Of a DNA stretch of 32,506 bases, positions 1 to 11,152 are shown one piece after another; position 1 is the stretch's first letter; each line of letters begins with the position of its first letter. The stretch spans positions 1 to 32,506 of the forward strand of contig WFVC01000131.1 of NCBI GenBank assembly GCA_015491815.1, given 5' to 3'. The stretch is from Gammaproteobacteria bacterium. Lineage in GTDB: Bacteria; Pseudomonadota; Gammaproteobacteria; UBA6429; Thiohalophilaceae. The position numbers and the translations under genes were made by a program. Under the pieces are notes generated by a model. It had not been told where the DNA came from and did no database searches. It saw only the letters and a list, made by a program, of their open reading frames with translations.

Positions 1-1125
1 GCCCAGACGCGGTAAAAGGTGATAAGTGATACCCATGAAGGCCAACGTTACCGCCACAATCGAACCGTGATAATGCGCGGGCACGGTAACATTGCTTCCA
101 CTGATCATAAAACCAATCACACCCCCCACGCCGAATAAAAAAATCGAACTCAACAGCGCATTGCCTTCTGCGCTCGCTATAAATCGCCTGCCGCCGGCAA
201 ACACGCTGTAGATGATAATCAGCCCAAGCGGTAAGGCCGCCAGCCCGCCGCCATATTGCATCAGCCAGGTGATCGCCTGCAGGTGATCGCCACTGCCCAC
301 GCTAAACATTATATAAACAACGGGAGTAAACAGTACCGGCAATATGCCCAGCGTAAATAAAATTAGCGCCACTCGGGGTGTGAGCCGGGGAGTGAAGCCA
401 GCGATGCTGGCCAGACATAACCAGGCCACCAGCATCAACTGAATATGAACAAATTGCAGGGTATGTCCCCCGCCCCAGAAAAGCAGCTCATAGTAATGTT
501 CGCCGGTAATATTTTCCGGTATACCAAACCACGATGCCAGCAATGCAAAGACCGCCGTAATGGCGGCCAGCAGGGAAGTATATAGACCAAAACGAATCGC
601 CCCGGCGCCGCTGATAGTTGCGCCAATAGAACGGGAAAACAGCAGTCCACGCAGCACGGTAATCGTAAAGCCGATCCCAAATATGCCCAGACCGGTAAAA
701 AAGATCGGATCCCGCAACACCGGAACATAATTGTTCATCAAAGGTTCAGCCGCACCCAGAAATGGCGCGATGACAATAATGCAGGAACCGGCAATCGCCA
801 GCCACAGGCCCGCCCAGCCACAGGCCGTACAACGCGATGTGCTGTTCAGGCTCCAGAACATACCCGCATAACCCAGAAACCAGACCAGCACGGTAAGATC
901 AACATGCACCACCAGCGCGGTATGAAAGAAATCGACCCAGGGAATGATATCCTGGATAAACGGCGTTCTTGAGAGCACCAATAAAATAGTAAACAGGCCC
1001 GCGACCAGCAGCGAGCCGACTGCTAACATCAACCAGCCTGTGCTGATGCGAGTGTTGGCGCGATCATCTGGAACATCCAGTGTAAATGCATCCAGCAATG
1101 CATTCGCAGTGTATTCTGTTTTCAT
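1..1125 (-). CDS. Heme-copper oxidase superfamily subunit I, NO-reductase-like (3' end off window)
   Basis: The 375 visible residues form a polytopic membrane protein of the heme-copper oxidase subunit I family. It starts at ATG 1125 and runs off the left edge. Seen in the sequence: a helix II His for low-spin heme (H68 or H74), a helix VI WGGGH motif with H221, an Asp-His pair (D280-H281, GSGDHLQ) where oxidases have His-His, and the heme ligand pair H351/H353 in PAHYHG. The residue four after H221 is Phe, so the cross-linked Tyr of A/B-type oxidases is missing. No Tyr sits just before D280 as in cbb3 oxidases. In the family, loss of this Tyr and altered CuB ligands mark NO reductases, so I infer a non-canonical NO reductase, perhaps of the gNOR class. 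No CuA subunit lies beside it. The upstream neighbours are the cytochrome b/Fe-S fusion and a one-helix protein. An unusual oxidase remains possible. Confidence 0.8.
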   Translation of the reverse strand, partial: MKTEYTANALLDAFTLDVPDDRANTRISTGWLMLAVGSLLVAGLFTILLVLSRTPFIQDIIPWVDFFHTALVVHVDLTVLVWFLGYAGMFWSLNSTSRCTACGWAGLWLAIAGSCIIVIAPFLGAAEPLMNNYVPVLRDPIFFTGLGIFGIGFTITVLRGLLFSRSIGATISGAGAIRFGLYTSLLAAITAVFALLASWFGIPENITGEHYYELLFWGGGHTLQFVHIQLMLVAWLCLASIAGFTPRLTPRVALILFTLGILPVLFTPVVYIMFSVGSGDHLQAITWLMQYGGGLAALPLGLIIIYSVFAGGRRFIASAEGNALLSSIFLFGVGGVIGFMISGSNVTVPAHYHGSIVAVTLAFMGITYHLLPRLG

Positions 1126-1390: not shown

Positions 1391-1894
1391 TTATTTGATA
1401 ATAAACTTTCCCGCACTGGAATTAAATTCAATGATCATATGCTGTTCCGGTTTCAGACTAATATCCTGCTCAAGCCGGTATGTCGGACCTTTGACCTTAA
1501 TATCATCATTAATCCAGACTAACAAATGGTGCTTACCCGCAGGCACCTTGATGTTCTGATAAATATCGATGCCCTGATCCTTGAACAGTCCAAGTGGTGG
1601 CGCTGTTTTATTGTAAATCACCTTGCCGTCCATTTGCAGTTCCATCGTAATCGGAGATCGTTCACGAGTACAATCCATGGGCTTACGCATGTTGGGGGCA
1701 AGCTTGAGCAACTCTTCCTGTGTCATCCTTCTGCATTCCTGCACATGCTTGCCTACATGTCCCAGAGTGAAGGTGATCATGGCCTGATTTTCATCAAGTT
1801 GATGGTAGGCGGGATACAGTGAAAAATACCATACCACCCCCATAAACAGGCTGTAGTTAAAAATTTGAAGCACAATTTTCAAAAACTTATGCAT
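1391..1894 (-). CDS. Hypothetical one-helix membrane protein with periplasmic domain
   Basis: A 167-residue protein that I do not recognise. It has one hydrophobic segment at about residues 9-30, followed by a soluble domain of about 135 residues that is probably outside the cytoplasmic membrane. The domain has two Cys (in VQECRR and MDCTRE) that could pair, and beta-rich stretches such as VPAGKHHLLVWIND. The frame is open further upstream, but ATG 1894 is chosen because it overlaps the stop of the cytochrome b fusion in ATGCATAA (8 bases), a typical sign of translational coupling. Its place between the fusion and a heme-copper subunit I suggests an accessory subunit or assembly factor of that complex. 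No catalytic motif is visible. Confidence 0.75.
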   Translation of the reverse strand: MHKFLKIVLQIFNYSLFMGVVWYFSLYPAYHQLDENQAMITFTLGHVGKHVQECRRMTQEELLKLAPNMRKPMDCTRERSPITMELQMDGKVIYNKTAPPLGLFKDQGIDIYQNIKVPAGKHHLLVWINDDIKVKGPTYRLEQDISLKPEQHMIIEFNSSAGKFIIK

Positions 1895-3473
1895 GGTCAG
1901 CCTCACCTGTATTGGCCGCTTCACGCTTAAGTTTCGCCAGACTGTCCTCAAAATAAGCAAGCTCCTTGCGTAACTTTTTGCAATCAGTCTCTGCCGCTCT
2001 GAAAATATGAATGCGCCTGCGATCGGCTCGCTTGCGTAAAATCGGTTGACGCGATCCCGCAAACCGTTCATCAAACCAGCGGTTGCCATGACGGTAATAA
2101 CAATCCCCTGTTCGACAGCCGGTGATAAACACGCCATCTGCGCCAAGCTTAAGCGCATACTCGATCATCGTCGGTGGAATCATGCCTGCGCAAAAATAAC
2201 TAACTACTGCAATATTGGAAGACTTGAGTCCTGCAAAATCAATCGCATTATCACAACCAAATATAATAATTTTATTCTCACCTTCAAGCGAATCGATCGC
2301 CGCTGTTACATGTTCACGAATATCATTAATGGGCTGCTGCGGCATATCAATGCCCGTCACCAGTTTTTCCCTGGCATGGCGAAATGGGTTGGATGAATGA
2401 CAGGATCCTACACAAATACCACAGGCGGCACACAGGTGTTCAAGAACAACGACCTCATGTTCCCAGCGTGCGCCATCCGTACGCGCTTGCACACTAATAG
2501 CATCAAAAGGACAGTCCATTGCGCATTGCTCGCAGCCATTGCATTCCTGTAAATGTACTTCGGCAGCAGGCCCGGTTTTCTTTGGCGGCAGCCAGGGCAT
2601 CAACATCAAAAAAACAGTAATCCCTATCGTTAAAACCCAGACTTCGCCAGAAGACCAGTTATCAAGTAGCGGATAGATATTTAAATAAAACCAGTCAATA
2701 TTTAGCACCGCTGGTGTTTTCGCAAGATCCGCCGCCTCATGGCTCACCGCCGGCGCCAGCAATGACAGCACCAACAAAGCAACAAAACTACCAATCGCCA
2801 AACCTCTGGGAGCGATAATGGAAACATCAGAAAGACGCTTGACATGAATCCACAGAGCAAAAGCCAGAAAAACGGGCTGACCCAGCAGATGCAGGAATCC
2901 CATTAAAGTGAAAAAACGATCATTGATCTGACTTTCAAGAAAATTACGCGACATAGACGCAGGTAAAAATGGCAATGCATCCATAAGCTGAGAGGACTTG
3001 ATGGCTACAAATAACGCCAGCTCATCCCATACCAACCAATAGCCGGTAATTCCAAGGGTAACAACAAACCAGAGATTCGGCACTCCTGTTATCCAGGAAA
3101 ACCAGCGAAAACCTCGGTAACGATCCAGCGAAAATTCCCTGAACATATGCAGGATAATTGTCAGCACCACAGCATCAGAGGCATAACGATGCAGACTGCG
3201 CATAACGCCGGCGGCATACCACTGTTCATGGGTCATGTACTCCACTGATGCGTAAGCGCCGGAAAGGCTGGTATCGAAAAAGATGAACAGATAGAGTCCG
3301 CTGACAAAGATGACCCAGAAAAAGAAAAACGCCAGTGTTCCCAGATGGTAAAGTGGATTCCAGTCATTTCCAAAGGAAATATTAAACCAGTTCTCAAGCG
3401 CCAGATAAGCCCGTTTAACCGGATTGATATAACTCAAAATCAAGGTCCTCTGAAATGATAATGGTGGTGACAC
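1887..3473 (-). CDS. Fusion of cytochrome b, two [4Fe-4S] ferredoxin clusters and FlpD/MvhD-type iron-sulfur domain
   Basis: A 528-residue fusion. Residues 1-300 are a membrane cytochrome b/b6 domain with two heme b His pairs: H95/H109 (14 apart) and H195/H210 (15 apart, the b6-type spacing), plus extra helices to about 295. Next comes a ferredoxin pair, C311/C314/C317/C321 and C348/C351/C354/C358. Residues about 400-475 match the FlpD/MvhD (hydrogenase delta) family, with C407, C428, C453 and C458 in GCRTGDCYYRHGN. MvhD/FlpD proteins pass electrons between soluble flavin or hydrogenase units and heterodisulfide-reductase-like enzymes. I infer a membrane relay between a cytosolic donor or acceptor and quinone or the neighbouring heme-copper enzyme. 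The start GTG 3473 is uncertain: TTG 3443 or 3437 lies behind a better AGAGG ribosome site. It has its own predicted promoter. Confidence 0.9.
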   Translation of the reverse strand: MSPPLSFQRTLILSYINPVKRAYLALENWFNISFGNDWNPLYHLGTLAFFFFWVIFVSGLYLFIFFDTSLSGAYASVEYMTHEQWYAAGVMRSLHRYASDAVVLTIILHMFREFSLDRYRGFRWFSWITGVPNLWFVVTLGITGYWLVWDELALFVAIKSSQLMDALPFLPASMSRNFLESQINDRFFTLMGFLHLLGQPVFLAFALWIHVKRLSDVSIIAPRGLAIGSFVALLVLSLLAPAVSHEAADLAKTPAVLNIDWFYLNIYPLLDNWSSGEVWVLTIGITVFLMLMPWLPPKKTGPAAEVHLQECNGCEQCAMDCPFDAISVQARTDGARWEHEVVVLEHLCAACGICVGSCHSSNPFRHAREKLVTGIDMPQQPINDIREHVTAAIDSLEGENKIIIFGCDNAIDFAGLKSSNIAVVSYFCAGMIPPTMIEYALKLGADGVFITGCRTGDCYYRHGNRWFDERFAGSRQPILRKRADRRRIHIFRAAETDCKKLRKELAYFEDSLAKLKREAANTGEADHA

Positions 3474-3494: not shown

Positions 3495-3535
3495 ATTTTA
3501 ATCGAACAGCGCTGAGAATCTTTGACCTTTATCAA
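3495..3535 (-). promoter_or_regulatory. FNR/DNR-type box and -10 for the cytochrome b-FlpD operon
   Basis: TTGACCTTTATCAA at 3522-3535 matches TTGAT-N4-ATCAA with one mismatch. On the minus strand TAAAAT (3500-3495) lies where a class II FNR promoter puts its -10, with the box centred near -41.5. The predicted start is about 14 bases before GTG 3473. The box overlaps the stop codon of the Sco gene, so a second regulated unit begins directly at its end. Confidence 0.65.
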
Positions 3536-4401
3536 ATACCGGGAGGCCGTTTGCCATAACGGTATTCACGCACAATAAATATGATTGTATAAATGATAAT
3601 CGACAGGCCAATAAACAGACCAATAAAAAGTGAATAATCAAACTGGTAGCTGTCGGTATAAGGATCATAAGTCGTACAGAAAAAACGCACATTGTCGACA
3701 AGCGTGGCGAAAAAACTCTGGCTGGGTTTTGGCTGGCCAAGCACTAACTCTATAAGAGGTTCAACCAGTAACTGAGTATCAAAAACTTCACCATACACCT
3801 GACGATAAATTTTTCCTGCTGCATCAACTACCGTTGCCTGCACGACATGATCAAAACCATTGGGCGAAGGGAAAAACTCAAATCCAAGTTCCTGGGTTAA
3901 TGTAGCAATCGTCTTGCTATCTGCGCTCAAAATATACCAACCACTATTTTCAATTCCCTGCTTTTTAGCAAAAAGCCGCATGGCCTGCGGGCTATCATAT
4001 TGAGTATCGAAACCAATAACCGCAACAGAAAAACTGTCCTCTCCCAGTGTTTCACGCGCCTTTTCTACAACCTTGGCTAGATGACGTATTGTCATAGGAC
4101 AAGTTTTATAACAACTGGTGTAGACCATACTGATCACCAGCGGTTTCCCCAAAAATGTTTGGGTGGATATTGCTTTACCATGCGCGTCCGTCAGCGAAAA
4201 AGAACCCAGCGTTCGACCTATCGCATCCTGACTCGCCTGTAGCGCTGACTTATACTGAAAGGTTTTAATTGATTTTTGCGGATCTGCACTTTCAGCATTG
4301 GCCTGCGGTAAAAACAATAGCAGGGGACTAATGAAAAGAAGTAATGCAAAAAAAAGACGTATATTAATAACCAGAAACCAAAGAAGGGTGGTAAAAAACA
4401 T
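3532..4401 (-). CDS. Sco1/SenC-family copper chaperone
   Basis: This is a 289-residue SCO/PrrC/SenC protein, which in the family delivers copper to the CuA or CuB site of heme-copper enzymes or acts as a thiol-disulfide partner. The copper ligands are visible: C97 and C101 in the CYKTC motif and H185 in FDHVVQ. An N-terminal hydrophobic segment (about residues 6-32) and an unusual C-terminal helix (about 255-278) anchor a thioredoxin fold outside the membrane. The ATG at 4401 follows an AGGAAAG ribosome site. It lies 14 bases after heme O synthase and is the last gene of the CuA enzyme operon. A senC gene beside a CuA/subunit I pair is also the layout reported for norSY clusters of ammonia oxidisers. 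Confidence 0.92.
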   Translation of the reverse strand: MFFTTLLWFLVINIRLFFALLLFISPLLLFLPQANAESADPQKSIKTFQYKSALQASQDAIGRTLGSFSLTDAHGKAISTQTFLGKPLVISMVYTSCYKTCPMTIRHLAKVVEKARETLGEDSFSVAVIGFDTQYDSPQAMRLFAKKQGIENSGWYILSADSKTIATLTQELGFEFFPSPNGFDHVVQATVVDAAGKIYRQVYGEVFDTQLLVEPLIELVLGQPKPSQSFFATLVDNVRFFCTTYDPYTDSYQFDYSLFIGLFIGLSIIIYTIIFIVREYRYGKRPPGI

Positions 4402-4415
4402 CTACCACTTTCCTG

Positions 4416-5273
4416 TCATATAGCGACGACATCAAGAACGGCAAAGAACAACAAACTTACCAGTTGCACCAATGAAGCAAAGAAGTTGCGCATCGCCATT
4501 TTGGGCGTTGTATTCTGAACCAGCAAAATACTTCGATAAACAAAGTAACCACCGCCTAACAACGCACCGGCAAGATAAAGCCAGCCCAGACCGTAAAAAA
4601 ATGGCAAAACAGAAACACTGGCCAAAAGTATTGCATTCCAGAGAATCGCCTTTGCCGCCGCTCTGTCGCCTTTTACAACCGGCAACATAGGCACACCAGC
4701 AGCTTCATAATCCTTATGCTTGGCAATCGCCAAACTCCAGAAATGTGGTGGCGTCCAGAGAAACAGCACCATCGCCAGAATAATTGGAATTGGTCCCAGA
4801 TTTGGGTCAACCACCGCCGCCCCAGCGAGCACTGCGAAACTTCCCGATGCCCCGCCAATAATGATGTTAATCCAGGTGCGCCGTTTTAACCAGACGGTAT
4901 AGACAATGGCATAGAAAAAAGCGCCCAGAAAGATAAACAGCGCCGCTATGCCGTTAAGCGTATAAGCCGCCGCAGCGATGCCCACCACAAGCAGCAGCAA
5001 AATTGTTGATAACCAGACGGGATTACTGCTGGAGAATTCACCCGTAACAAACGGACGGTTTCTGGTGCGCTCCATAAGTCGATCATAATCGCGTTCATAA
5101 TATTGATTGAATGCACCCGCGCTGCTGGAGGCCATGAGTATCGTCAACGCCAGCACCGCTACCTGCCATGCAGGCACCGCATCGCCCGGAGTAACGACCA
5201 TCGCGACCACGGCCGTAATCGTCATGACGACTCCAATACGGATTTTAAAGAGATTAATAAGTTGCCCGATCAT
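4416..5273 (-). CDS. cyoE: Protoheme IX farnesyltransferase (heme O synthase)
   Basis: A 285-residue UbiA-superfamily membrane prenyltransferase that adds a farnesyl group to heme b to make heme O, the precursor of heme A. The first Asp-rich motif, NQYYERDYDRLMERTRNRP (about residues 56-74), and the second loop AIAKHKDYEAAGVPMLP (about 183-199) are both intact. Eight or nine hydrophobic segments are evident. Start ATG 5273 has AAAGG upstream. It sits between the subunit I gene and sco, and heme A synthase lies divergently upstream, so the cluster supplies modified heme as well as copper. The usual name in cox operons is ctaB. Confidence 0.96.
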   Translation of the reverse strand: MIGQLINLFKIRIGVVMTITAVVAMVVTPGDAVPAWQVAVLALTILMASSSAGAFNQYYERDYDRLMERTRNRPFVTGEFSSSNPVWLSTILLLLVVGIAAAAYTLNGIAALFIFLGAFFYAIVYTVWLKRRTWINIIIGGASGSFAVLAGAAVVDPNLGPIPIILAMVLFLWTPPHFWSLAIAKHKDYEAAGVPMLPVVKGDRAAAKAILWNAILLASVSVLPFFYGLGWLYLAGALLGGGYFVYRSILLVQNTTPKMAMRNFFASLVQLVSLLFFAVLDVVAI

Positions 5274-5384: not shown

Positions 5385-7124
5385 CTAGCTCCCCATCGGC
5401 CAGACCGATGCCAGGTACTTCCAGTTGATGAAGTAATAAACAACGAAAGTAACCAGTAGGAGAAGCGCCAGAACAAAGGTTCCGGGAGCCTCAAAACCGC
5501 CACCTGAACCATGATGCCCTTCCAGTTGGGGCGCGCGCTCCAGTTTTTCGGGGCGCTCAATATTATAAACTGATGCCGCCAGAGGTTTACCGACAAAGCT
5601 TTCAAGGAAACCGGCCGAAGGTTCCAGTTTCTTACCGAAGAGCAGAGATCCCACGGTAATAAGCAGGAAAGATCCGCCCCCGACAATAGCCAGCACACCA
5701 CCGATAGCACCGATCGCCATCAGAGTATACGCCATTCCGGAATACTCAAATGTCAGCAATGCGCCGGTAAAATCCATGTCCCAGTGACGGCGTGAAACCC
5801 CCAATGTTCCCGCACCCAGCATGAATAAAATCAGGATAACCATGCCGCCGCCGAAAATATAGGGCTGCAGTTTGGCCAGCCAGGGGAGAATCATCTGACG
5901 ACGGAATAAGACCGGAATCAACAGATAAGTCAGCGCCATAAACGCCAGGGTTGTACCTGTTACTACCGTTGCATGGAAATGCGCAGGCACATAAATCGTA
6001 TTATGGATGATCAGGTTGATCTGCTCGGTGCCCATGACCACGCCGGTGATACCACCGAGGAAACCGAAGGTAACCAGCGAAATAAACATGCCGGAGAAGA
6101 CCGGGTTACCCCAGGGCGCCTTGCGCAGCCATTCGAATAACCCCTTGTTTAAGCCTTTGTTGCGTTGCGCCACCTCGATAGAACCCGGCACTGTCAAACC
6201 ATGAATCATACTGGCAAGCACCGCGAGATACATGGCGTAACTGGTATTGAAGATTTTCCATTCCGTACTGATGCCCGGATCAACCAGGATATGGTGAGCA
6301 CTAGCCAGTTGCAGGAACAGAATATACAACAGATACGCAAAACGGCTGACTTTTTCCGACATGGGCCGCGCACCGAAGAGAATACCGGCAAGCAGATACC
6401 AGATAGCCACATGCGCCGCAACGTTAATCTGCTGGGAAGAATGGCCTAAAGCCCACCAGATAACACGATACATTTCTGCATCAATATGGTTTATATACCC
6501 AATCGACCAGAGAAAAGTCGGAACCAGAATAATCGCACCACTGGCAATGGTAAACACCGCAATAATCGCCGCCGTGATGGCGCCGAAGGTTACTATTGGC
6601 ACCGAACCTTCATAGGTTTTTTCCTGCTGTGCGACAACCAGGGTGCCGAAAAATACAAAAATCTGCACCAGTGCGCCGACCGCAAACAGAATCAGTCCCA
6701 GATAGAAATGCGGCGCTGCCTGCATGGGCGCATAGGAGGTCATCATGACACTCGAGTTCCCCTGTAGCACCGCAATATTATTCATCACTGCGCCGATTAC
6801 CATAAGGAAGAACCCGGCCCATGCCCATCCTGGCGTCGCCAGCCGGCAACGCAACAGAGTGGTCGAAGCAAAGTGCAAAATGGCCATCTCAAAAAAGATG
6901 ACCCAGAAAATCAGGGCATTGATACCATGCCCCGTCAGCACCTGATAAAAAATATCCGCCGGAAGCAAATGCACTTCCTGCCAACGCGTAAGCACAACCC
7001 CCAATGCCAGAATACCGGCTATCAGCAAGGCGACCACACCGGCAACCGCATTCACCTTCATCAAGCGTTCTGCATCGCGGTTAAAATAAAATCCTGAATC
7101 AGGACAAAGACGAAATGAAGACAT
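5385..7124 (-). CDS. Heme-copper oxidase-family catalytic subunit I lacking the catalytic Tyr (NorSY-type NO reductase candidate)
   Basis: A 579-residue subunit I with about 13-14 membrane segments. Heme and copper ligands are present: H66 (low-spin heme), H228 on helix VI, H277-H278, and H382/H384 in PAHFHA. The helix VI motif reads WWALGHSSQQ, so position H228+4 is Gln instead of the Tyr that A- and B-type oxidases cross-link to the His. This is known to be absent in NO-reducing members of the superfamily. With a CuA subunit II just upstream and senC downstream, the layout resembles the norSY-senC (sNOR) clusters. I infer a cytochrome c or cupredoxin-fed NO reductase; an oxygen reductase with an altered site is the alternative. 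Start ATG 7124 has GGGGGAA upstream inside the end of the subunit II gene. Confidence 0.88.
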   Translation of the reverse strand: MSSFRLCPDSGFYFNRDAERLMKVNAVAGVVALLIAGILALGVVLTRWQEVHLLPADIFYQVLTGHGINALIFWVIFFEMAILHFASTTLLRCRLATPGWAWAGFFLMVIGAVMNNIAVLQGNSSVMMTSYAPMQAAPHFYLGLILFAVGALVQIFVFFGTLVVAQQEKTYEGSVPIVTFGAITAAIIAVFTIASGAIILVPTFLWSIGYINHIDAEMYRVIWWALGHSSQQINVAAHVAIWYLLAGILFGARPMSEKVSRFAYLLYILFLQLASAHHILVDPGISTEWKIFNTSYAMYLAVLASMIHGLTVPGSIEVAQRNKGLNKGLFEWLRKAPWGNPVFSGMFISLVTFGFLGGITGVVMGTEQINLIIHNTIYVPAHFHATVVTGTTLAFMALTYLLIPVLFRRQMILPWLAKLQPYIFGGGMVILILFMLGAGTLGVSRRHWDMDFTGALLTFEYSGMAYTLMAIGAIGGVLAIVGGGSFLLITVGSLLFGKKLEPSAGFLESFVGKPLAASVYNIERPEKLERAPQLEGHHGSGGGFEAPGTFVLALLLLVTFVVYYFINWKYLASVWPMGS

Positions 7125-7127
7125 AAC

Positions 7128-7664
7128 TTATTCCCCCACGTAAATCTTGCCAACCATAGTATGGTGGCCAATACCGCAATATTCGTTACAAATAACCCCG
7201 TACTCTCCTGCTTTGTCCGGAGTAATATTTATAACCATTTCATAGCCCGGAACCACTTGCATATTAATGTTAACGGGCTGCAGGGAGAAACCATGCTGGT
7301 AATCCATCGAGGATAAATGAAAACGATAACTCTTATCCTTTTCAAGCTCCAGAATCGGCCACCATTGCCACAGGCGCGCCAGCATATAAACATCGCTGCC
7401 TGCCGGGGGGCGCACAACCGGAATACCGGATTCTTCACGCACCGTATATTTGTCAATCATCTCCTGAACCTTAGCTCCATAGGCAGCGGGCGTGGTCTGA
7501 TAGGCTTCGGTAGAAAGGTTTTGTTTTCCATAAATATGCCAGATAGGCATCATGGCGAACATTATCAGACACCAGACCAGAGCGATGGCAATCCACACCA
7601 ACTCCTGACGCCCGACAGGCACCTTCCACCAGATTCGATCAGCAGGCGGTAAAAATGTAGTCAT
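7128..7664 (-). CDS. CuA-containing subunit II of heme-copper enzyme
   Basis: This 178-residue protein has one N-terminal helix (about residues 20-42) and a cupredoxin domain outside the membrane. All CuA ligands are visible: H124 in DYQHGF, then C159, E161, C163, H167 and M170 in the CNEYCGIGHHTM motif. It takes electrons from a soluble carrier and passes them to subunit I. The short, single-helix form fits B-type oxidases and CuA-type NO reductases rather than the two-helix A-type subunit. ATG 7664 has GAGGAGAATTAGTT before it, and only 3 bases separate it from the subunit I gene. Confidence 0.93.
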   Translation of the reverse strand: MTTFLPPADRIWWKVPVGRQELVWIAIALVWCLIMFAMMPIWHIYGKQNLSTEAYQTTPAAYGAKVQEMIDKYTVREESGIPVVRPPAGSDVYMLARLWQWWPILELEKDKSYRFHLSSMDYQHGFSLQPVNINMQVVPGYEMVINITPDKAGEYGVICNEYCGIGHHTMVGKIYVGE

Positions 7665-7961: not shown

Positions 7962-8005
7962 GTATTACATACCGGAATTCGGCGACTCACTTTGACCTAA
8001 ATCAA
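7962..8005 (-). promoter_or_regulatory. FNR/DNR-type box and -10 for the CuA enzyme operon
   Basis: TTGACCTAAATCAA (7992-8005) differs at one base from TTGAT-N4-ATCAA. On the minus strand TGTAAT (7969-7964) or TAATAC (7967-7962) lies at the -10 position expected for a class II FNR-family promoter. Transcription would start near 7957, giving a leader of about 110 bases to ATG 7848. The rest of 7849-8218 shows no gene. The box could also affect ctaA on the plus strand, though no -10 stands out there. Confidence 0.6.
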
Positions 8006-8218
8006 TTTACCAACCTAAATACCTGATTTTTTTAATCGGGGACTTACTTATCCCAATATTTAAGCCTGTCATTATATTGCTGAGATTCAAAGTACAGCGA
8101 AATCATATTTATTCAAAAATACACTGGCAAACAATGTAGTGGATTTCAGATTTCCAAACACCCCGCCCATCTGATACCATTTTTGACGTTTTTATGTATG
8201 AGAGAGTCAACATCGACA

Positions 8219-9259
8219 ATGACATCGCCTGATAATCATCAAAAAGCCATCGCTATCTGGCTTTTTATCTGTTGCGCTAGCATTTTCGCCATGGTCATAC
8301 TTGGCGGCGTGACCCGTTTAACCGGTTCCGGACTGTCGATGGTTGAATGGGAACCCCTCATGGGCATCCTTCCCCCCCTTGATCACGCTCAATGGCAGGA
8401 AACCTTTCTTCTCTATCAGCAGTTTCCCGAATACAAGCTACATAATTACAGCATGAATCTGGAGGAATTCAAGTCGATCTTCTGGTTTGAATATTCCCAC
8501 CGTCTGCTGGGACGCATGATTGGGTTCATTTTTATTGTCCCCCTGCTGTATTTCATCATGACCGGAAAGATCAGAAAGTCACTGATTCCCAAATTGATCG
8601 GCATGTTTATACTTGGCGGACTACAGGGGCTAATGGGCTGGTATATGGTAAAAAGCGGCCTGGTTCAGGATCCCCACGTCAGCCAGTATCGACTAACCGC
8701 GCACCTGGCTCTGGCTTTTATCGTCTACGCCTATATTTTCTGGGTGGCTCTGGATCTGTTTTTCTCAGATCAGGATCGTATCCGCAAAACAGCGACAAAC
8801 GGACTAAAGCAATTTTCATTGCTACTCACGCTGCTTATCTTTATTACGGTTCTTTCCGGTGGTTTTGTCGCCGGACTCAAGGCCGGTTATGCCTTCAACA
8901 CTTTCCCCTTGATGGGCGGGCGGCTGGTGCCCGAAAGTATTTTTGCGCTCTCCCCTGTCTGGAAAAATTTCTTTGAAAATATCGCCACCGTTCAGTTTGA
9001 CCATCGCGTCATGGCGACCCTGCTGTTTATTATTATCCCCCTGTTCTGGCTAAACGCCATACGTCAGGATATTCCGGCGCGAGTGCGAACCGGAGCGCAT
9101 CTGCTACTGGCCATGCTTGGCATTCAGGTCACACTGGGAATTTCAACCCTGCTACTGCATGTTCCCATACCACTGGCCGCCGCCCATCAGGGTGGCGCGC
9201 TCACGTTGTTCACCATCATGCTGTTCATTACCCACGAACTACGGAACACGCCAAATTGA
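8219..9259 (+). CDS. ctaA: Heme A synthase (CtaA/COX15 family)
   Basis: About 346 residues with eight membrane segments in two four-helix halves. It oxidises the C8 methyl of heme O to a formyl group, giving heme A. Family marks are GGVTRLTGSGLSMVEW near the N-terminus, EYSHRLLGR with the first heme His, TAHLA, and in the second half FDHRVMA and AAHQGGA. The frame is open to TTG 8183, with in-frame ATGs at 8198 and 8219; 8219 is preferred because family N-termini begin shortly before the first helix. It is divergent from the CuA enzyme operon and, with cyoE, implies that this organism makes heme A, perhaps for the neighbouring enzymes. Confidence 0.94.
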   Translation: MTSPDNHQKAIAIWLFICCASIFAMVILGGVTRLTGSGLSMVEWEPLMGILPPLDHAQWQETFLLYQQFPEYKLHNYSMNLEEFKSIFWFEYSHRLLGRMIGFIFIVPLLYFIMTGKIRKSLIPKLIGMFILGGLQGLMGWYMVKSGLVQDPHVSQYRLTAHLALAFIVYAYIFWVALDLFFSDQDRIRKTATNGLKQFSLLLTLLIFITVLSGGFVAGLKAGYAFNTFPLMGGRLVPESIFALSPVWKNFFENIATVQFDHRVMATLLFIIIPLFWLNAIRQDIPARVRTGAHLLLAMLGIQVTLGISTLLLHVPIPLAAAHQGGALTLFTIMLFITHELRNTPN

Positions 9260-9269
9260 ATGCCCGCGC

Positions 9270-9484
9270 CTAATTAGATGTTCCAAATACCAGATCACTT
9301 GTGAGTTTCCACGTTCGTGGTGAAGTCCTGAGCCCTTCGACTTCGCTCAGGAGATCCCTGACGAAGGGTCGAACCATGAGCGTGGAAACACTGTAAATTG
9401 AGTGCTTAATCTGTTTGTCCTTCGACAAGCTCAGGACGAACGGTTGTTCCATAAAGTGTACTGGTATTTGGAACACCTATTTAG
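9270..9484. repeat. 215-bp MITE-like element A with 24-bp terminal inverted repeats
   Basis: The left end CTAATTAGATGTTCCAAATA (continuing CCAG) from 9270 and the reverse complement of the right end, 9461-9484, agree at 22 of 24 positions. Inside are a palindrome bounded by GTTTCCACG (about 9306) and CGTGGAAAC (about 9381), and copies of TTCGACTTCGCTCAGG and TTCGACAAGCTCAGG. The right 44 bases resemble the left end of the element at 29202. No transposase is encoded, so a non-autonomous element is likely. Its right end contains the stop codon of the regulator gene. Confidence 0.75.
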
Positions 9485-10164
9485 AGAAGTTCCCGCAGTC
9501 CGTCAACATCCAACAGGGTAATATCATTACCATGCACATCAATCAGACCATTCCGGGACAAACGGGTGAGGATACGAGAGAATGTTTCTGGCTGAATGGC
9601 CAGACGCGACGCCACCACACTCTTGGGGGTGGTCAGATGAATTTCAGATAACGCCACAACATCGGCAGGAAGCTGATCCAGCAAAAAAACCACCAGCCGA
9701 TAAGTCGCATTATGCAGGGTAAGATTGTTGATTTCATGAATACGCGCATGCAGACGCCGACTCATATTCGCCATAAGATGAAAACAGGTTTCCGTGGACT
9801 GTTCCAGTATTTCCTTAAATGTCTGCATACTGAAACTGAGCACTTCACTTTTCTTGATGGCTTCGGAACTTAATGGATAAACCTGATTGCGCATAAAAAT
9901 AATCGCTTCAGCAAACGTCTGGGAAGGATGGATAATCTCCATCACCTTTTCATCGCCATCGGCGGAAATACAATATAGTTTAATCTGCCCGGATTTCAGC
10001 AAATAAAAACGTTGCGCCGGCTGCCCGGCTTCAAACAGGGTTTCCCTTGCCGCCAACTGAATCGTCGTCGAAGTTTGCAACATTTTATCCATCTGTTTGT
10101 CGTCCAGCATTTCAAACAGATAAATAGCTTTCAATTGTGCCGCAAGCGCCTGCTCTGACTTCAT
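9481..10164 (-). CDS. Crp/Fnr-family regulator, DNR-like
   Basis: A 227-residue regulator with an N-terminal cyclic-nucleotide-binding-like beta barrel (about residues 12-125), a dimer helix, and a C-terminal winged helix-turn-helix (about 165-215). The recognition helix contains ETFSR, the E..SR pattern with which FNR/DNR proteins read TTGA half-sites. The N-terminal Cys cluster of FNR is absent, so sensing by a [4Fe-4S] cluster is unlikely. DNR/NnrR-type proteins sense NO through heme. ATG 10164 is chosen over an in-frame TTG at 10185 because GGGGAT lies at ribosome-site distance. Four matching palindromes nearby make it the likely local regulator. Its stop lies in a repeat end. Confidence 0.9.
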   Translation of the reverse strand: MKSEQALAAQLKAIYLFEMLDDKQMDKMLQTSTTIQLAARETLFEAGQPAQRFYLLKSGQIKLYCISADGDEKVMEIIHPSQTFAEAIIFMRNQVYPLSSEAIKKSEVLSFSMQTFKEILEQSTETCFHLMANMSRRLHARIHEINNLTLHNATYRLVVFLLDQLPADVVALSEIHLTTPKSVVASRLAIQPETFSRILTRLSRNGLIDVHGNDITLLDVDGLRELL

Positions 10165-10313
10165 ATCGCCATCCCCAATAAACAACGTACTTTTAAACTC
10201 ATAAACAAACCTTCCCCGGAAAAGCTCGCCCTTTATATCGAAATACTATTTCAAAAACAGTATATTAGTGAAAAGCAAAATAAAAGCAACTAAATAAATA
10301 TTCCTTGTTGCAG

Positions 10314-10354
10314 TTGACTTTGGTCAACGACGATGCCCATACATTTATTAAAAA
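10314..10354 (+). promoter_or_regulatory. Perfect TTGAC-N4-GTCAA palindrome with -10
   Basis: TTGACTTTGGTCAA (10314-10327) is a perfect inverted repeat of the FNR/DNR type. On the plus strand TAAAAA (10349-10354) is at class II -10 distance, giving a start near 10362 for the gene at 10404. It also lies 150 bases before the regulator gene, so autoregulation is possible, but no -10 is evident on that side. Confidence 0.6.
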
Positions 10355-10735: not shown

Positions 10736-11152
10736 ATGAGCAACAACAAACTTTTAATTGAGTGGCAGGAAAATAGCCTGTCTGTCGGCATTCCCCAGAT
10801 GGATGAAACACACCGGGAATTTATTGATATCATTAACCGCCTCGGGCAGGCCAGTGATGAACAATTCTCGAAATTATTCGAGCAACTGCTCGAACATACC
10901 CATCAGCATTTTAAAAATGAAGACATAGCGATGGAAAAATCAGGTTTTCCACCCATATCAATCCATCGTAATGAGCATTTCCGGATTATAGATAAACTTA
11001 AACAATTGAATGAAAATATCAAAACCGGGGATATCGACATCGCCCGAACCTTTGTCTGTCGCTATTTGCCTGAATGGTTTCCCCTGCATGCAGCAACCAT
11101 GGATCGCGCCCTGGCCTGCCACCTCAAGGCAGCCGGCATGGCTGACGCATAA
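10736..11152 (+). CDS. Bacteriohemerythrin
   Basis: A 138-residue single-domain hemerythrin with a non-heme di-iron site that binds O2, and in some bacteria NO or iron-nitrosyl stress products. The full ligand set is seen: H26 (DETHREF), H58 and E62 (HFKNED), H77 and H81 (HRNEH), H118 and D123 (HAATMD). The protein is cytosolic with no signal peptide. Its own FNR/DNR box and the neighbouring regulator and NO-reductase-like genes point to use under low oxygen or NO. Confidence 0.95.
   Translation: MSNNKLLIEWQENSLSVGIPQMDETHREFIDIINRLGQASDEQFSKLFEQLLEHTHQHFKNEDIAMEKSGFPPISIHRNEHFRIIDKLKQLNENIKTGDIDIARTFVCRYLPEWFPLHAATMDRALACHLKAAGMADA

Follow-up and report, generated by a model that had tools for sequence, protein, structure and literature searches.

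The nitric oxide (NO) reductase eNOR, which produces N2O, belongs to a small group of such enzymes believed to be capable of energy conservation. It is recognized by a Gln that replaces the cross-linked Tyr of the active site (PMC8756737, section 2.7.1 and Table A4). The eNOR descriptions in the passages available to us name two subunits and no cytochrome b-ferredoxin-FlpD component, whereas the window analysed here (the whole stretch of DNA, 32,506 nucleotides) encodes such a component as a single fusion protein. In a denitrification gene survey (PMC8756737), a row of Table A3 gives cytochrome b6, 4Fe-4S (DMSOR beta-like) and FlpD on one protein, RME88945.1; the passages seen of that survey list this domain set and hold no discussion of it. 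Compared by this table row only, RME88945.1 differs from the fusion by an extra cytochrome c-type C1 domain. The sequence-only reading of the window had proposed an undescribed system, and no description was found: a literature search that combined FlpD, cytochrome b and NO reductase yielded that table alone; the main eNOR paper (Murali et al., PNAS 2024) lay outside this search, which limits the novelty claim. eNOR, FlpD and cytochrome b are each known; within the same limit, no account of their near-obligate pairing with eNOR came to light. We give about even chances to the proposal that, in Proteobacteria, the fusion serves eNOR as its dedicated component for electron transfer across the membrane. 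The features of the window are as follows.

1..1125, minus strand: second subunit I-like protein, 3' end missing at the contig edge; an optional partner
1391..1894, minus strand: one-helix protein with one TM helix and a beta-sandwich domain, predicted periplasmic; its start overlaps the 3' end of the fusion gene
1887..3473, minus strand: the fusion, a 6-TM bc-type cytochrome b with a 2x[4Fe-4S] ferredoxin and a C-terminal FlpD (Pfam, alignment, AF2 and Foldseek)
3522..3535: NNR/FNR-type box TTGACCTTTATCAA, directly upstream of the fusion
3532..4401, minus strand: SCO1/SenC copper-insertion protein
4416..5273, minus strand: heme O synthase CyoE/CtaB
5385..7124, minus strand: predicted eNOR subunit I, with Gln232 at the cross-linked Tyr position and H228, H277, H278, H382 and H384 kept
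7128..7664, minus strand: predicted eNOR subunit II, with a COX2 Pfam match and the CuA motif CNEYCGIGHHTM (C-x3-C-x3-H-x2-M)
7992..8005: NNR/FNR-type box TTGACCTAAATCAA, upstream of the eNOR operon
8183..9259, plus strand: heme A synthase CtaA, divergent from the operon
9481..10185, minus strand: CRP/FNR-family regulator, with a box at 10314-10327 before the gene
10736..11152, plus strand: hemerythrin-like protein (an O2/NO-binding type of fold), a recurring neighbour in relatives

Judged by its active-site Gln and its CuA subunit II, the enzyme encoded at 5385-7664 is by sequence an eNOR-type NO reductase. HSSQQ of subunit I (5385-7124) was aligned with HPVVY/HPIVY of solved B-type oxidases. 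The two subunits match the eNOR family (Hemp & Gennis 2008; Murali et al.; PMC8756737) in the diagnostic Gln, in the CuA motif and in every heme and CuB His residue. The Gln was found in 43 of 43 aligned subunit I sequences and also in the Thermomicrobium and Thermus homologs. The predicted NO reduction by this enzyme is consistent with nirS and nosZ in the genome context. An assignment to sNOR was rejected, as it needs Asn at the active-site Tyr position, where Gln232 stands.

The second subunit I-like protein (1-1125) is distantly related to eNOR (hhalign probability 99.8). It retains the heme His residues H74, H351 and H353, plus H221, and has a conserved Phe225 at the Gln/Tyr site; the first helix VII CuB ligand is missing and the residue at that place is variable. 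Contig C21 seems to continue the gene (92% identity, 323-bp overlap). In the sequence-only reading this protein, called a 'DH-type' subunit I, was expected to be the constant partner of the fusion. This expectation was not borne out, since the gene lies directly downstream of the fusion in only 23 of 60 loci with enough sequence and position 280 (Asp) is variable in 41 homologs. The same variability removes 'DH-type' as an NOR signature, and gNOR was rejected for this protein because it needs Asp at the active-site Tyr position, where Phe225 is found, the Asp of 'DH' being elsewhere and variable. The conserved heme-copper partner of the fusion is the upstream enzyme at 5385-7664, not the edge-cut protein at 1-1125. 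L113:3-575 also holds such a degenerate, eNOR-like second subunit I, in which the active-site position is Phe and a CuB ligand is absent.

The open reading frame at 1887-3473 (minus strand) encodes a fusion of 528 aa. Pfam searches found in it, in this order, Cytochrome_B (residues 40-211, E 1.9e-15), a pair of Fer4 sites (about 306-360) and a [2Fe-2S]-type FlpD domain (residues 410-515, E 8.3e-17). In NCBIfam the membrane part falls near ExtP/ExtQ and near cytochrome b6; the soluble part falls near the HdrA2 C-terminus, and the HdrA2 profile covers residues 303-518. The ligands of two b hemes (H95/H109 and H195/H210), eight ferredoxin Cys (311/314/317/321 and 348/351/354/358) and four FlpD Cys (407/428/453/458) were kept in 80-81 of 81 homologs, the exceptions being single gaps or one substitution. 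Because the redox ligands are near-invariant in these 81 homologs, the fusion is far beyond chance, and the earlier claim of a three-part protein with its ligands kept holds. An AF2 model built with 40 homologs had a pLDDT of 82.8 and a pTM of 0.79. Foldseek searches with this model matched bc1 cytochrome b over about 290 aligned columns and the MvhD-type FlpD chain 8rvu_F (TM 0.76 by target). The true start is probably a TTG at codon 13, which aligns with the start in two relatives (L022 and L014); residues 1-14 have pLDDT below 50. The draft genome of another relative contains a fusion fragment with one internal TAG (L013, G038:C69:5309-5767).

The fusion shares parts with several described proteins. 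As in MvhD/FlpD and the C-terminal part of HdrA2/QmoB, two [4Fe-4S] clusters are followed by FlpD with four Cys, but a cytochrome b takes the place of the HdrA flavin domain and no HdrA/QmoB gene is nearby. As in the cytochrome b of bc1/b6f and in ExtP/ExtQ of selenite/tellurite reduction operons, four His are carried on two helices and two further helices are present. Unlike in bc1/b6f, cytosolic FeS domains are added, the motif reads DWFY and not PEWY, and neither the operon of the window nor those of the relatives read encode a Rieske protein or cytochrome c1/f. The Qmo complex (QmoABC) likewise joins FlpD, FeS and heme b at the membrane; however, the QmoC cytochrome b is of the HdrE/NarI type and not of the bc type, and the QmoA/B flavoproteins are absent from the cluster in the window.

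Helix order and basic loops place the N terminus of the fusion, the loop 116-123 and the FeS/FlpD part on the predicted cytoplasmic side. In the model, the pair H109/H210 is on the side of the basic loops and the FeS domains; by the cytochrome b fold it would bind the cytoplasm-side heme, and H95/H195 the periplasm-side heme. A D-W-F-Y motif at residues 260-263, in the predicted last periplasmic loop, is conserved as D-W-(F/Y)-Y in the 81 homologs. It resembles the PEWY quinol motif at a comparable place, an equivalence judged by eye. The conserved motif hints at a quinol site, and a quinone would thus fit as the partner instead of eNOR.

Relatives at 44-87% identity show the genes arranged in the same way, as subunit II - subunit I - CyoE - SCO1 - fusion - one-helix - (second subunit I). 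The eNOR-fusion order is kept in most of 80 genome-contig loci and extends to Magnetococcales and to a plasmid of Defluviimonas, which was the one full-length match of the plasmid search with the fusion. Where enough sequence was available, eNOR subunit I was located less than 4 kb upstream of the fusion (37 of 50 loci). In 369 Gammaproteobacteria genomes the fusion was found in 34, eNOR in 33 and both in 32 (Fisher p 1e-42, a guide only because the genomes are related), and both genes were absent from 334. All three exceptions were assembly breaks on broken contigs: one contig stops inside SCO1 (G253), one stops just after eNOR subunit I (G301), and in the third genome a truncated eNOR subunit I is present (G296). 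In an order-level sample, fusion and eNOR occurred in the same 8 of 40 genomes. Even when the fusion was not beside eNOR on the fetched stretch, 14 of 16 genomes had eNOR elsewhere. Pairwise distances, in which the pairs are not independent, gave a correlation of r = 0.90 between fusion and eNOR subunit I, 0.88 between eNOR subunits I and II and 0.59 between eNOR subunit I and the second subunit I. The fusion is a near-constant, near-obligate companion of eNOR. These results support the conserved unit with a heme-copper NO-reductase-like enzyme, and they go against the refuting condition set by the sequence-only reading, an absence of conserved linkage in other genomes. The tight co-occurrence also offers a simple marker separating eNOR operons from oxygen reductases in metagenomes. 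The eNOR genes on plasmids of Thermomicrobium and Thermus have no fusion gene beside them, which indicates that eNOR does not need the fusion everywhere.

The one-helix gene adjoins the fusion in 66 of 71 loci with enough sequence. Residues H46, C54, N68, M69 and C75 of its product are invariant, and H46, C54, M69 and C75 could form a metal site or a disulfide. The beta-sandwich was predicted with confidence in a structure model, and comparison of the fold with the PDB gave no match at E <= 0.001. A known cupredoxin or Rieske protein was rejected on the absence of a PDB fold match and on sequence hits that were short or weak. The two invariant Cys of this neighbour would suit an assembly or redox-maintenance role of the fusion, which would carry cytosolic electrons across the membrane for the reduction of Cu(II), of SCO1 thiols or of hemes while eNOR matures. 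The ferredoxin-type CcoG is thought to act so in the maturation of cbb3 oxidase. The fusion gene comes after the maturation genes SCO1 and CyoE and tracks eNOR even when unlinked, as such a factor might; but a diheme bc-type cytochrome b with DWFY and FlpD exceeds what a copper reductase needs, and Pfam and NCBIfam gave no sequence relation to CcoG. We regard this explanation as unlikely.

Three TTGAY-N4-RTCAA boxes were found in the window, with 0.15 expected. Such a box lies before eNOR subunit II at 33 of the 38 loci, against a null of 5.7%. For the fusion, against a null of 3.4%, it was found at 18 of 59 linked loci and at 6 of 18 others, among them the unlinked fusions of L059, L070, L075 and L088. 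The CRP/FNR-family regulator at 9481..10185 likely controls the eNOR operon. In the closest relative (L022), the cluster is followed by DUF420, SCO and nirS-nirE-nirC-type genes, nirE and nirC being named by sequence appearance, and the genome of the window carries nirS copies and nosZ on other contigs. The eNOR-fusion operon is a denitrification unit. Shared NNR/FNR-type boxes would by themselves account for co-expression if the fusion were a general NAD(P)H/FeS:quinone oxidoreductase, co-regulated with denitrification and without special contact with eNOR. We hold this to be highly improbable, because it leaves unexplained both the tie to eNOR and the absence from the 334 genomes.

FlpD domains serve HdrA/QmoB, and the fusion had been expected to travel always with hdr genes. 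No HdrA/QmoB or hydrogenase partner for FlpD was found in the cluster of the window, and no hdr gene in the clusters of the relatives read. In a census of FlpD proteins only, 15 of 37 fusion genomes had another FlpD protein and 22 had none, and Hdr/Qmo was rejected as an obligate partner. The Hdr link thus fails as a general rule. In the genome of the window itself, contig C102 (L111:426-10987) carries soeABC-like, qmoAB-like and hdrCB-like genes, named by sequence appearance, so that a cytosolic partner of the FlpD type exists in this genome. The set has the look of a sulfur-oxidation setting. It could be read as the counterpart of a fusion that anchors an Hdr/Qmo-type sulfur-oxidation flavoprotein in the membrane, with eNOR as one of several electron sinks, and no qmoC was seen beside qmoAB-hdrCB. 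With the 22 genomes and the hdr-free clusters against it, such an anchor seems highly improbable.

Paralogs of the same membrane module carry other cytosolic heads. At L119:2672-5212 the module is joined to flavodoxin, FAD_binding_1 and NAD_binding_1, and at L121:6637-8619 and L122:5583-7571 to Fer2, FAD_binding_6 and NAD_binding_1; the L121 paralog is inside the eNOR operon, beside the FlpD fusion. The heads look diflavin-reductase-like or ferredoxin-NAD-reductase-like, and the genes lie within eNOR operons, close to them, or at other places in genomes that have eNOR. These swappable heads are the strongest hint of electron exchange between the module and cytosolic carriers, and the module has the look of a plug-in conduit that links such redox carriers to eNOR. 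The paralogs with NAD(P)H-type heads also help the earlier suggestion of a possible route from a cytosolic FeS or flavin enzyme to the membrane. More tentatively, and with some doubt, modular cytochromes b with interchangeable heads may form with eNOR a new respiratory complex that either wires NO reduction to cytosolic ferredoxin or NAD(P)H, or bifurcates quinol with NO as the high-potential acceptor and makes low-potential reductant.

NAD-binding heads would likewise serve a reverse, bifurcating flow through the fusion. Quinol would be oxidised at the PEWY-like DWFY site, one electron going to eNOR and the other via bL, bH, [4Fe-4S] and FlpD to a cytosolic acceptor, ferredoxin or, for the paralogs, NAD(P)+; the high potential of NO would drive low-potential reduction in autotrophs. 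The bc1/b6f-type fold with its motif at the p side agrees with this, and sulfur oxidisers, which depend on reverse electron transport, are among the named carriers. The operon, however, has no Rieske protein or cytochrome c1, and the motif is D-W-F-Y rather than PEWY. We regard this reverse or bifurcating flow as unlikely.

For the fusion as the dedicated electron-transfer component of eNOR, the following route is proposed. A cytosolic low-potential donor would reduce the [2Fe-2S] site of FlpD, and electrons would run through both [4Fe-4S] clusters to heme bH on the cytoplasmic side and on to heme bL on the periplasmic side. From there they may reach eNOR with its CuA subunit II directly, via the one-helix protein as a putative periplasmic subunit, or via quinone. 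We infer the direction of flow, the identity of the donor, the direct contact with eNOR and the role of the one-helix protein. The proposal draws on domain order, ligand conservation, a topology-consistent model, co-occurrence with eNOR, shared NNR/FNR-type sites, the denitrification setting and the paralogs with NAD(P)H heads. Against it, none of the genes in the cluster encodes a donor protein for FlpD. The same genome encodes a bc1-type cytochrome b (L002), so that the conventional path through cytochrome c to CuA may be available.

The tie of the fusion to eNOR suggests a denitrification enzyme with a dedicated wire to the cell interior. If proteobacterial eNOR always has its own conduit, the model in which cytochrome c feeds CuA is incomplete. 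Widespread sediment and vent bacteria, sulfur oxidisers among them, would be affected, and for these carriers the energetics of denitrification and of N2O formation would need rethinking.

Some further arrangements were observed. Several eNOR operons (L019, L020, L125 and L102) have a hemerythrin-like gene beside the fusion or beside the one-helix gene. A second fusion type, without one-helix gene, eNOR neighbours or FNR-type box, is present at L084, L086, L087, L089 and L095; for four of these, judged by contig name, a further copy, linked to the operon or to SCO1, is present in the assembly. Two tandem fusion copies are found in small genomes of another class (L123:7581-10997 and L128:2368-5885), and in L123 a more distant eNOR (50%) is located upstream of them.
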